This document shows positions 5,760-27,151 of a stretch of DNA of 34,355 nucleotides, in pieces; position 1 is the first letter of the stretch, and every line of letters starts with the position of its first letter. The DNA lies in the IMG/VR virus record IMGVR_UViG_3300020204_000192, positions 1-34,355 of that record; one strand, written 5' to 3'. Source of the DNA: a virus. The notes under the pieces are model-generated. The model made no database searches. It was not told the origin of the DNA and saw only the letters and a program-made list of their open reading frames with translations. Both the position numbers and the translations under genes were made by a program.

Positions 5760-6098
5760 TTATTTATATATTTTTACTTTATGCAACGTTTTAATTAATT
5801 TGAATAAATCAGTAAAAGACATTTCTTTAGTATTTAATCTATCCTTTGCTAATAACATATCAGGCGTTTTATTACCATATCCACCAATTTTATCAATTGC
5901 AGCATAATTACTAAGTTTGGTTCTTTCACCTGTTCTCATTTGCACAAATACAGGATCTATGGGTGTGTTTTTAGGATCATCTTCTCTACTATATTCAGGC
6001 TTAAAATGAACCTTATATAAAACAATATCAGAATTTACTTTCTCAGTTACTTGTTGAATTTCTTCTCTGATAATTTGTCTTAATTGGGATAGTTTCAT
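5760..6098 (-). CDS. Possible internal head protein with CTS-like leader
   Basis: A 112-residue basic protein. The N-terminus MKLSQLRQIIREE is an amphipathic helix that ends in I-R-E, the type of site cut by T4-like prohead proteases ((L/I)-x-E). The same leader begins the proteins at 6173-6553 and, more loosely, 7617-8006, while the remainders are unrelated. In T4, such 10-residue capsid-targeting sequences send internal proteins into the prohead. The body has no recognised domain. Packaging with the DNA is inferred from the leader alone. Confidence 0.6.
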   Translation of the reverse strand: MKLSQLRQIIREEIQQVTEKVNSDIVLYKVHFKPEYSREDDPKNTPIDPVFVQMRTGERTKLSNYAAIDKIGGYGNKTPDMLLAKDRLNTKEMSFTDLFKLIKTLHKVKIYK

Positions 6099-6172
6099 AG
6101 TTTTATCCTTTTATTATAAATATGAATCAATTTGATAAAGGTGCTTTAATTGTTGGGTGGAATTGATTTTGT

Positions 6173-6553
6173 TTAATTACCTACGATATACACATCATAC
6201 CCAGTTGCTTTGCTAGATACAATTGGTTTAAGAGAGTCTTTAACCTCAAATTTAATTTCTTCTAACAAATCTTGAGATATACCTGCGATTTTTTTGGGGT
6301 CAGGTTTAAATTCAAATTCACAAACACTATCTGTTACTACGTAATTGATTAAAACACAATCATTTTCTTTTATGGTTTTAATCACCTCTTCCCATAGAGA
6401 TTGATTGTTATTATCATTCTTATTCCATGAAAAGTAAATAGCAGCTACTAAATTGTTATCTACATGTTCAGATTTGTAAATAGGAGATTGAACCTCATTT
6501 AGCATCTTTCCAATTTCTTCTCTAATAATTTGTTTTAATTGTTGTAGTTTCAT
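6173..6553 (-). CDS. Possible internal head protein with CTS-like leader
   Basis: A 126-residue protein starting MKLQQLKQIIREE and then IGKMLNE, giving two potential (I/L)-x-E cleavage sites at residues 10-12 and 18-20. The rest (YKSEHVDNNLVAAIYFSW onward) is a mixed alpha/beta sequence I cannot assign. The shared leader with the two neighbours suggests a common destination rather than a common function. Confidence 0.6.
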   Translation of the reverse strand: MKLQQLKQIIREEIGKMLNEVQSPIYKSEHVDNNLVAAIYFSWNKNDNNNQSLWEEVIKTIKENDCVLINYVVTDSVCEFEFKPDPKKIAGISQDLLEEIKFEVKDSLKPIVSSKATGYDVYIVGN

Positions 6554-6580
6554 TGTTAAAATTATTTGTGATTATACATA

Positions 6581-6757
6581 TTATGAAACTTTAGATAATG
6601 CAAGTATTGTTAATAAAACATCCTTAAATTGAATGCTAGCTTGCTTTTTATCTTCATCACTTAATTTATTATAAATACTTATAATTCTTGATTTATCATA
6701 GGATGGATGATCCCATTTATGATACTTAATTGCTTTTTCTAAATTTTCAAGTGACAT
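6581..6757 (-). CDS. Hypothetical helical protein, 58 aa
   Basis: All-helical, soluble, with the segment KYHKWDHPSYDKSRIISIYN near the start and LSDEDKKQA in the middle. It begins 6 nt after the stop of the 84-aa gene upstream, so it shares that gene's transcript. No family recognised. Confidence 0.55.
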   Translation of the reverse strand: MSLENLEKAIKYHKWDHPSYDKSRIISIYNKLSDEDKKQASIQFKDVLLTILALSKVS

Positions 6758-6763
6758 ATGTTA

Positions 6764-7018
6764 TTAGTTATTAAATAATCCTTCAGATAAATTAATACTT
6801 AACATATTGTCTATATAATCGTATGGGTGCATTCCTGCTATTTCCCTTAGTTTGCTATCACGAGCTAACCACATAACACTACTATATTGTAATTCTTCAA
6901 TAAAATGATTGGATTTCATTTGTTCCAAAATTGCTGTAACTGAATAAGGATACTTATCAGCTTGTGATTCGATTATTGCTTTAGCTTCCGGCTTTAATCG
7001 TTCAAATAGATTTGACAT
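6764..7018 (-). CDS. Hypothetical helical protein, 84 aa
   Basis: Soluble and mainly helical, starting MSNLFERLKPEAKAIIE and ending in LSINLSEGLFNN. It has a promoter at 7036-7067 and the AAAAGTTATG leader. No family recognised. Confidence 0.6.
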   Translation of the reverse strand: MSNLFERLKPEAKAIIESQADKYPYSVTAILEQMKSNHFIEELQYSSVMWLARDSKLREIAGMHPYDYIDNMLSINLSEGLFNN

Positions 7019-7035
7019 AACTTTTGTTTTTTATT

Positions 7036-7067
7036 TAAATATACGAACAATCTCTTAGGGAGCCAAA
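7036..7067 (-). promoter_or_regulatory. Promoter for the 84-aa gene, partly inside the upstream gene
   Basis: TTTG (7064-7067), 20-nt spacer, TATATTTA (7036-7043). The -33 box lies in the last codons of the GIY-YIG gene. The position that holds GTCAT elsewhere reads CTCAC here, so it is a weak match to that class. Confidence 0.8.
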
Positions 7068-7546
7068 TATTCAAGTGAGTTTCTTTTAGCTTGGCTATTC
7101 CTCTTACTGAGTTCTTTAATAAAGGGGTGTTTGTTGCCTCTCACATTTAATGGTAATACATGAGAATTAATTAGTTTTATCTCAACTTGCTTATACTCAG
7201 GATTCAGTTGATATTCTACTTTCATATGTTTATCCATAAACTCATCTACTCCATCTTTAGAATGCCAGTTACCAAATAATAGTGTTGATAGTTTTTGTCT
7301 TAGTATCGATAATGCACCTGCTTTAATGCTTGATAAACTGTGTTTATCAGTTGTGTGCCATTTTAAACGCATTCTAAGATCTCGAGATAAACCTATGTAA
7401 ATCAAAAAATAGTTATTCTTAATAGAGCACCCATCAGTAGAAATCCCTAACTTAGAGGCACCATTTGCATCTACATACCAAAAATAAACTCCACCCTTAT
7501 TGGGGATTGATTTTAAACTTTCAATTATTTGTAGACGTGAAAACAT
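7055..7546 (-). CDS. GIY-YIG nuclease-family protein
   Basis: A 163-residue protein with GVY at 19-21 and YIG at 50-52 in the order expected for the GIY-YIG fold. RDLRMRLKWH (55-64) follows, supplying the usual arginine and histidine. E122 in KQVEIKLI is a candidate for the metal-binding glutamate, and LPLN (131-134) with HPFIKELSKRN matches the C-terminal part of bacterial GIY-YIG proteins. An insertion between the two GIY-YIG strands lengthens the usual spacing. It probably cuts DNA; whether it is a homing or restriction-type enzyme is unclear. It has its own promoter. Confidence 0.75.
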   Translation of the reverse strand: MFSRLQIIESLKSIPNKGGVYFWYVDANGASKLGISTDGCSIKNNYFLIYIGLSRDLRMRLKWHTTDKHSLSSIKAGALSILRQKLSTLLFGNWHSKDGVDEFMDKHMKVEYQLNPEYKQVEIKLINSHVLPLNVRGNKHPFIKELSKRNSQAKRNSLEYLAP

Positions 7547-7560
7547 AACTTTTATTTATT

Positions 7561-7592
7561 TAAATATACGAACAAAATGTCGTATAACCAAG
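7561..7592 (-). promoter_or_regulatory. Promoter, GTCAT class, for the GIY-YIG gene
   Basis: CTTG (7589-7592), 20-nt spacer, TATATTTA (7561-7568), with GTCAT 8 nt upstream of the -33 box. Confidence 0.8.
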
Positions 7593-7616
7593 TTTTTTAT
7601 ATGACTTAGATATAAC

Positions 7617-8006
7617 TTAGTCTCCTGTATAGCTACCTGGGGGGCCACTATATTCACTTGATAAATCAACAGGTTCTAAATCAAAGTTAACAGGCATAAA
7701 ATTTCTCCTTCCATATTTTGTAAAAAGTTCAAATTCCATATCTCCAAATGCGTCTAACCAAGCTTTTTTAAATCTATTAAAATAAAAATCTCTTTTGCTT
7801 GGATTAATATCAAAACGTATAATTTCCTGTTCATTACTCTTAGGAATCATAGCTTCACCACTCACATTATAGTTAATAGAGGGAACATAAAGTGGCTCAT
7901 TTTCTTTACCTGGGATTATGAACATATCTGCGGTGGCATCGGATAACATCATTTTATCTCCAAGATCTTCTGTAAGTATTTCCTTAAGTATTTGAGTTAA
8001 CTTCAT
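7617..8006 (-). CDS. Possible internal head protein with degenerate CTS-like leader
   Basis: A 129-residue protein starting MKLTQILKEILTED, similar in length and hydrophobic pattern to the leaders of the two proteins at 5760-6553. L-T-E at 11-13 is the candidate protease site. The remainder has strands such as MFIIPG and a Pro/Gly-rich end (SSEYSGPPGSYTGD), with no known domain. Confidence 0.55.
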   Translation of the reverse strand: MKLTQILKEILTEDLGDKMMLSDATADMFIIPGKENEPLYVPSINYNVSGEAMIPKSNEQEIIRFDINPSKRDFYFNRFKKAWLDAFGDMEFELFTKYGRRNFMPVNFDLEPVDLSSEYSGPPGSYTGD

Positions 8007-9918: not shown

Positions 9919-11208
9919 TTAAAATTTAGTCCAACCTAATGCCCAATTTGTTGCTCCAAAAGCACCAATGTAAGGTACAGGAGTGAAGAACGAATTTGTC
10001 AATTTGGGATTTGTAAATGAAGCACTATTTAGAATAGGTGAATTTGCAAGTGGTAAATAAAATAAATCCAATTCTAAAGTATTTGCAATTGCATTCCCTT
10101 TATCAGGTGAATTGAAATAATCAAGAATTCCCGCCCAAGCATTTGCCCCATTTGTTTGTTCAAAGTTATTAGTCATATTTACTAACATTACTCGTTCTAA
10201 TTGCAGTAAATTATTCGTAGCATTTGATTGTGCTGCTGCTCCATCAATATGCAATCCGGTTGGATAACCTGTAAAAATTGAATTATAAATCGAAGTGCAA
10301 GTGTTTCTACGTAAGTGCATTGCTCGTCTATATAAACCAGCAGGCGTTCCTGATTGTTTAGGCCCAATTACTGTTATGTTTGAGAAGATAGGAGCAGTTT
10401 GAGGTAAATTAGATGAACCTGTTCCATCGTTATCACTTTCAAACGCGTTTGATTGTGATTGATCTGCAATAGCAGGATCTCTAATAATTAAACCAAATTG
10501 AACCATTCCTCTATAACCAAAATCAGTATCAAAATCATCGTCCCAACATTTGTATGCAATTAAGTTTTTACAATTAACTGTTCCACCAAACCATTCGAAT
10601 CCATCATCCCCCGCATAACTTACTTGAACATTTTCAACTATTGTTTCTCTACCTACACCACCAAATGTTAAGCCATTAATCTCATTATTTGGTTGATAAG
10701 CGATACCTCCATATTCAATACGAACATATTTTAAAATACCCGAATTATCATTATCGTTTGTTCCACCATATGTTGCATCTTGCCCTAACAAACCACCTTC
10801 AATTAAAGCTGTTCCACCAGGTACATTAATAGTAGCATTTCCTAAAATGACTAATCCCCCCCAATCACCATATGTTTTTAGGTTATCAGGTTGTGCTGAT
10901 GTAAATACAATGGGTTGAGTTGAGGTTCCTTCGGCAATAATTTTACTACCACGAGTGATAATTAAAGTGCCTTTAGACGCTTTATCCCCAAAAATAGTAG
11001 TTCCGGGTTGGATAGTTAATGTTGCTCCATTTTTTACAAATACGAATCCACTCAAAACATAAGTACTATCTTTGTACCAAGTAGTATTTTGAGTAATAGG
11101 ACCTGTTATAAATGTTTTAATATCAGGATTTGGGGTGGGTTGTGGGTTATCTTTTTTACAGGAAGTAAAAGTAAGAACCAACAAAAGCAGTAAACTAATT
11201 TTTTTCAT
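9919..11208 (-). CDS. Secreted beta-helix lipoprotein
   Basis: A 429-residue protein with a lipoprotein signal peptide (MKKISLLLLLVLTFTSC, cysteine at 17) followed by KKDNPQPTPNP. The body has repeating short strands and Gly/Asn turns typical of a right-handed parallel beta-helix (for example GATLTIQPGTTIFGD, then GGLVILGNATINVPGG, then LKYVRIEYGG). Similar lipoproteins are common on Bacteroidetes cell surfaces. In a phage it could mask a receptor or act as a morphogenesis or conversion protein, but no catalytic motif is visible. It stands alone between an LpxH-like gene and a repeat array, and could be a recently gained gene. Confidence 0.75.
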   Translation of the reverse strand: MKKISLLLLLVLTFTSCKKDNPQPTPNPDIKTFITGPITQNTTWYKDSTYVLSGFVFVKNGATLTIQPGTTIFGDKASKGTLIITRGSKIIAEGTSTQPIVFTSAQPDNLKTYGDWGGLVILGNATINVPGGTALIEGGLLGQDATYGGTNDNDNSGILKYVRIEYGGIAYQPNNEINGLTFGGVGRETIVENVQVSYAGDDGFEWFGGTVNCKNLIAYKCWDDDFDTDFGYRGMVQFGLIIRDPAIADQSQSNAFESDNDGTGSSNLPQTAPIFSNITVIGPKQSGTPAGLYRRAMHLRRNTCTSIYNSIFTGYPTGLHIDGAAAQSNATNNLLQLERVMLVNMTNNFEQTNGANAWAGILDYFNSPDKGNAIANTLELDLFYLPLANSPILNSASFTNPKLTNSFFTPVPYIGAFGATNWALGWTKF

Positions 11209-26515: not shown

Positions 26516-27151
26516 TTATTTTACTGGACTTGATTTGGTATCCTCACCCCTCTGTCTGGCTTTTCTCCCCGCACAATGTGCTTTTTGGGAAAATCCTTTT
26601 GGATTATTACAATCTATGGATTTTTTGTATTTATTCGTCCAATCTTCTTTTATTCTTTTTTTCAAAAGTTCAATTACCATAGTTTCAATCGTTTTCAACT
26701 TATCGTAATACTTCTGGTTCTCAAATACCGATGGTGTTTTTAGTTTAGCCCAACCACCGCCTGGTATATCAAAAATACGAGATGGAATAGGGATTATACC
26801 ATCTTTTGGTAACTTACTCCAATATTGTTTATCAATATGGATTACTCTTACCAAATAACTACGGGTTCTATTATCAACACCAACCATTTCTACCTCAACA
26901 GGTACAGGCACTCCACCAATCTTTAATTTACCTTTGTATATACCACCTTTGGTATGTTTTGCTTCTTCTATACCACCTTCAGGTGCAGGTGGTGGTGGTG
27001 TGGGTTCAGCTGCCGGTGGTGGTTCTTCGGCAGGGGGTTCTTCTTCTTTTTTCTGAAAGATATTTATTGGAAAAGCATAGGTGTATCCACCACATCTTTT
27101 TCTAAATTCTTGCTCAGTTTCACCCTTTAGTTTTGAGGAACACGTCGCCAT
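26516..27151 (-). CDS. Proline-rich phage protein with Cys-His C-terminal motif
   Basis: A 211-residue protein: an N-terminal part with three cysteines (CSSKLKGETEQEFRKRC), a Pro/Glu/Ala-rich linker (about 35-60), a beta-rich central part, and a C-terminal motif CNNPKGFSQKAHCAGRKARQ. I recall the PKGFSQKAHC motif at the ends of unrelated proteins of marine phages. It could bind zinc or mark virion proteins. It overlaps the 126-aa gene by 32 nt. Confidence 0.65.
   Translation of the reverse strand: MATCSSKLKGETEQEFRKRCGGYTYAFPINIFQKKEEEPPAEEPPPAAEPTPPPPAPEGGIEEAKHTKGGIYKGKLKIGGVPVPVEVEMVGVDNRTRSYLVRVIHIDKQYWSKLPKDGIIPIPSRIFDIPGGGWAKLKTPSVFENQKYYDKLKTIETMVIELLKKRIKEDWTNKYKKSIDCNNPKGFSQKAHCAGRKARQRGEDTKSSPVK

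Follow-up and report, generated by a model that had tools for sequence, protein, structure and literature searches.

Three small genes on a viral contig raise the question of whether unrelated proteins of one phage carry the same removable N-terminal segment and, if so, whether that segment sends them into the phage head. The window analyzed here is a whole viral-contig fragment of 34,355 bases. Its genes lie mostly on the minus strand and include those for GroES, GroEL, and an endolysin; no head genes were recognized in the fragment. All three ORFs are present on the minus strand, with exactly the starts given in the original prediction: ORF1 (5760-6098, 112 aa, starting MKLSQLRQIIREEIQQVTE), ORF2 (6173-6553, 126 aa, starting MKLQQLKQIIREEIGKMLNE), and ORF3 (7617-8006, 129 aa, starting MKLTQILKEILTED). 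Beyond these starts the bodies of the proteins differ, as was also proposed. Three leaderless ORFs of 58, 84, and 163 aa separate ORF2 from ORF3. By eye, the ORF at 7055-7546 (minus strand), between the leader genes, looks like a GIY-YIG nuclease (GGVYFWY...YIG). Elsewhere in the window, the ORF at 9919-11208 (minus strand) encodes a protein of 429 aa whose signal is of the lipoprotein type (MKKISLLLLLVLTFTSC), an unusual product beside small neighbor genes, and the protein encoded at 26516-27151 (minus strand) has the C-terminal end DCNNPKGFSQKAHCAGRKARQRGEDTKSSPVK. The latter was judged by eye to be homologous to a protein of a related phage (L273), based on a common PGGGWAKxKTPSVFE stretch. 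Proteins of L273 and another related phage (L152) share a domain with immuto26A_191, a leader protein.

The original prediction held that the leader is common to all three proteins. ORF1 and ORF2 have 11 identities among residues 2-20. The runner-up, taken over all pairs of the 75 ATG ORFs that are 60 aa or longer, has 6. When residues were shuffled within proteins 200 times, at most 10 matches were obtained over residues 2-20 (mean, 6.1). A leader profile searched against the window found ORF1 (E value of 4e-14) and ORF2 (6e-14), and the leader common to these two proteins is well beyond chance. ORF3 was not detected by the long-leader profile in this search, and the sharing therefore holds for two of the three proteins. 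ORF3 may belong, if anywhere, to a shorter leader class. Its start weakly resembles the short leaders MIKLTHLLKE/S and MKKLLNLLKE/S of relatives (a slash marks the end of a site throughout), and by this resemblance residues 1-13 (MKLTQILKEILTE; 7968-8006, minus strand), with LKE at 9 and LTE at 13, are a candidate short leader. No relatives of ORF3 were found among viral contigs.

The extent of the leader was examined in 87 non-redundant proteins for which the choice rested solely on residues 1-13. The constraint extends over residues 14-20 (I/V14, K16, V/L17, L18, N/E/K19, and E20), and nothing is conserved past residue 21, giving the consensus MK-x-x-x-L-x-x-I-I-[RK]-E-E-[IV]-x-K-V-L-x-E. 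The information per position is ~1.3 bits at residue 20, 0.5 at residue 21, and 0.2-0.4 beyond. In 52 of the 87 proteins (1.6 expected), an (I/L)-x-E tripeptide ends at residue 19 or 20, and it is followed by A, S, or G in 29 of these 52, against a background of 20%. The substrate site of the T4 gp21 protease is L/I-X-E (PMC9026906), and the leader sequences point to a cut by a head protease after residue 19-20. The predicted cut follows E19 in ORF1 (V-T-E; leader residues 1-19, 6042-6098, minus strand) and E20 in ORF2 (L-N-E; leader residues 1-20, 6494-6553, minus strand). The site of ORF2 reads LNE/V. That of ORF1, VTE/K, is atypical, with a P1' residue that is not small; V-T-E also occurs in some gp23 propeptides of the clade. 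An ORF1 ortholog with 68% identity (L228 8001, plus strand) retains the leader, which ends with VLRE/A, and the leader is likewise retained in ORF2 orthologs with 57-62% identity. In immuto, a phage in culture, long leaders stand on immuto26A_176, _177, and _191, and its leader proteins have a less distinct cut site. A cut at residues 10-13 had been proposed originally. The tripeptides are indeed present there (IRE at 10-12 in ORF1 and ORF2, LTE at 11-13 in ORF3). However, this position was rejected as the main cut because IRE belongs to the IIREE core, which is conserved, and has E as the next residue, whereas a site that was not selected for lies at 18-20.

The profile matches of at least 15 bits were N-terminal in 214 of 227 cases, and shuffled ORFs gave none. 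Many of the others are artefacts of an upstream in-frame Met, but two loci contain genuine tandem or internal copies. The protein at L072 6651 (plus strand) has the motif in N-terminal, internal, and C-terminal copies, and that at L013 1293 (minus strand) consists of tandem leader units; these repeats suggest precursors that may be cut several times. Between phages, the third codon positions of the leader vary while the residues stay, and therefore it is the protein and not the DNA that is conserved. A DNA-level or regulatory explanation of the leader was discarded on this ground.

A DNA pattern scan covering leader residues 1-13 gave at least 120 matching stretches in viral contigs and 14 in 257 Gb of cellular genomes; the expectation that the leader could be used to find further candidate cargo was borne out. 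In 25 large leader-bearing records every match lies on one strand, and the reversed pattern gave none. The carriers are of two kinds: paralogous arrays in which the leader precedes unrelated bodies (L021, L036/L099, L067, and L050), and a single-copy family A/B. The arrays can be dense, with 11 leader genes in 16 kb in one record (L232) and eight in another (L231). Most of the large gp23-bearing relatives that were checked have no long leader by the pattern, and the distribution by the profile is patchy. Searches by tblastn in annotated phages gave no match to the bare 20-residue leader or to six joined cargo proteins, and Pfam and PHROGs contained no named family for the cargo tested. In the openly licensed literature, neither a description of the leader motif nor a virion proteome of immuto was found, which is weak evidence for the lack of a prior description.

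AlphaFold models of ORF1 and ORF2 were built on only two and five sequences, respectively, and have moderate confidence. The ORF1 model has a helix at residues 3-22, low confidence at the predicted cut, and then a folded alpha/beta body. The ORF2 model is similarly arranged, with a helix at residues 3-20, a dip in confidence at the predicted cut, and a folded body. The predicted ORF2 body (residues 33-126) is ferredoxin-like, with a Z score of about 10 to ribosomal protein S6; this fold is common and therefore does not indicate the function of ORF2. For ORF1, the best Z score of the fold search was 3.7 and no viral match was obtained at E ≤ 0.001, and no fold is therefore claimed for its body.

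Because the fragment itself lacks head genes, the presence of a protease was inferred from relatives. The window has ~88% DNA identity to one record (G028) over about 12 kb, with 95% identity in GroEL, and the leader array of G028 is 96-99% identical to an array at the end of another record (G008). This record, from a close relative of the window's phage, has genes for a T4-type gp21 prohead protease of the S77 family, for a gp22-like scaffold, and for gp23. The leader-bearing records collected through GroEL have no head region; among the first 25 leader records, all 11 that bear gp23 also have gp21. The pattern finds six leader genes in G032, a relative at a greater distance (GroEL, 82%), which also has an ORF1 ortholog with LRE/A at the site. 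Leaders also occur within the head cluster. A long leader opens the gene that overlaps the stop codon of gp21 in three records (L283, L288, and L289), and the start of a leader gene in G067 is 79 bases past the gp21 match. Genes between gp21 and gp23 in the clade begin with short leaders of the MKKLxxLLKE/S type, such as MKKLKDLLKE/S. Most of the 77 gp23 relatives begin with M..xx[IL]L[NK]E/[SG], and all 77 have [LI]-V-x-E in the propeptide, which stands before A in 75.

Two further genes of these phages were noted. A small gene resembling that of ribosomal protein S21 lies inside the head cluster (L243 11552, minus strand; L247 17185-17412, plus strand); it is annotated as RpsU in Microcystis phage Mel-JY01, and a copy was seen by eye in G008. 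Proteins resembling HAD-type 5'-nucleotidases (L242 5321, minus strand; L248 2946-3545, plus strand) have an N-terminal extension that ends with LLKE/S or LLEE/S just before the catalytic motif, and the protein is annotated as 5' nucleotidase in immuto.

Cargo domains found behind the leader in one phage recur inside the long core proteins adjoining gp21 in other phages, often right after a site. The cargo SLTE/GKYDADLDKIEAAVKNASSFM of G028 corresponds to segments like GKYD that follow LNE/, VNE/, or ITE/ in the core proteins of L288, L283, L327, L299, and L321. Similarly, KLTE/GQVKIWKSPQG in L386 corresponds to GLTE/GQVKIWKSPQG within a two-domain protein of L233 (96% identity). By an automatic count, a site lies no more than four residues away in 22 of 39 internal occurrences of cargo domains (null, 25%; p = 2e-5); some of the 39 are gp22 artefacts that arose because the start of one leader (L247) was wrongly assigned. 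The sequence sets are not fully independent, and p values are therefore guides.

Here, we propose that the leader serves a T4-type phage as a capsid-targeting propeptide, cut by a gp21-type protease, and that ORF1 and ORF2 are its cargo, with a probability of roughly 0.78. The proposal builds on features computed directly: the common leader with its site and its abrupt end, the head module of close relatives, leader starts in the head cluster, and the exchange of domains with core proteins. The targeting and gp21-type removal first suggested for this locus are supported by this genomic evidence, that is, by the built-in cut site, the gp21/gp22/gp23 module of the relative, the leader genes in the head cluster, and the cargo domains behind the cut sites of core proteins. 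The 19-20-residue amphipathic N-terminal helix would dock proteins that are otherwise unrelated onto the core of the prohead. The S77 head protease would then cut after the terminal (L/I/V)-x-E, and the mature protein would be freed inside the head before it is filled with DNA. ORF1 and ORF2 would be two such proteins, and ORF3 may have the shorter leader form of 9-13 residues that is also found on head-core proteins. The leader proteins may then be injected into the host and, as first suggested, may be early host-takeover proteins; a role in the head core is also possible.

The last alternative deserves the most weight. The leader proteins could be scaffold-like components of the prohead core, targeted and cut as proposed above, that give the head its shape and are for the most part fragmented and expelled rather than injected. 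Leaders on core-cluster genes behind gp21 agree with this, as does the recurrence of cargo domains in long core proteins, where [ILV]xE/[AGS] sites are numerous. We nevertheless regard it as rather unlikely, since the leader sets are variable and stand in arrays away from the head cluster, and since some bodies are predicted to be ordinary folded domains, such as the HAD-like 5'-nucleotidase-type protein of G028 with a short leader and the ferredoxin-like body of ORF2. A different origin altogether, in which the shared 5' gene ends are function-free relics of duplication or recombination, would account for the high similarity of the ORF1 and ORF2 leader DNA and for the clustering of leader genes. 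However, the DNA upstream is unlike, and the codon variation and the retention in diverged orthologs described above (57-68% identity) make this explanation highly improbable.

Families A and B bear on a further reading, that the leader serves as a general docking helix when virions are assembled, in both head and baseplate, that it is not removed, and that its Glu-rich end is only the terminus of the helix. Members of these families (MKLDQLRKIIREEVRAAVKEEL...) have nearly the same helix, are single-copy, and lie directly upstream of the baseplate genes gp25/gp6 at the loci examined, including that of immuto (examples are L027 4981-5412, L016 7287-7769, and L012 8767-9138, all on the plus strand, and MW353175 81525-81944). 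In immuto, immuto26A_184 and _157 represent this baseplate-cluster family. Because of this location, the leader helix may serve more than the head. Yet most members also have E at residue 28 (48 of 63) and A at residue 29 (47 of 63), the (L/I)-x-E/[ASG] end of the leader is position-specific with free residues beyond, and internal copies of cargo domains often begin after the same kind of site. An unremoved helix is therefore an improbable explanation of the leader.

The capsid-targeting reading has practical consequences. The lack of a common sequence makes it difficult to recognize the proteins that environmental phages inject. With its 20 residues and its own cut site, the tag offers a simple search key for candidates of this kind in those T4-type phages that are known mainly through metagenomes, and it makes clear predictions for virion proteomics. 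It also suggests a packaging tag for Bacteroidota phages. We tentatively suggest, at somewhat less than even odds, that this T4-type clade, with Flavobacterium phage immuto as its cultured representative, loads large and fast-changing sets of effectors for injection by means of one modular, removable tag, and that the same domains are alternatively delivered within protease-cut core polyproteins.

The closest known counterpart is the capsid-targeting sequence of the T4 internal proteins. In the T4 record, IPII and IPIII both begin with MKTYQEFIAE/A and continue with unrelated bodies. Like the leader described here, this sequence is N-terminal, stands on unrelated small proteins of one phage, and ends with an (L/I)-x-E/A site for the head protease (PMC9026906), and the leader-bearing phages have the T4-type set of gp21, gp22-like scaffold, and gp23. 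The leader differs in having 19-20 residues instead of 10, another sequence, and far more carriers in each genome (as many as 11 within 16 kb), with tandem and core-protein versions. The T4 genome (NC_000866) has no match to the leader profile, and the leader falls outside the MKTYQEFIAE sequence family. In P1, an N-terminal signal sends DarB into the head of a myovirus, and the first 30 residues of DarB are enough for a reporter; the N-termini of the Dar proteins had no common consensus (PMC9024508), whereas here one consensus is common to dozens of unrelated proteins. The gp23 and core proteins of the clade itself, with short MxxLxxLL[NK]E/[SG] starts, share with the leader the kind of site, the S77 protease, and the gene cluster. 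Their leaders have 9-10 residues, unlike the long leader, and it is this short class that ORF3 resembles. The leader is best described as analogous to the T4 capsid-targeting sequence in its working and unrelated to it in sequence, a longer and more widely used variant.
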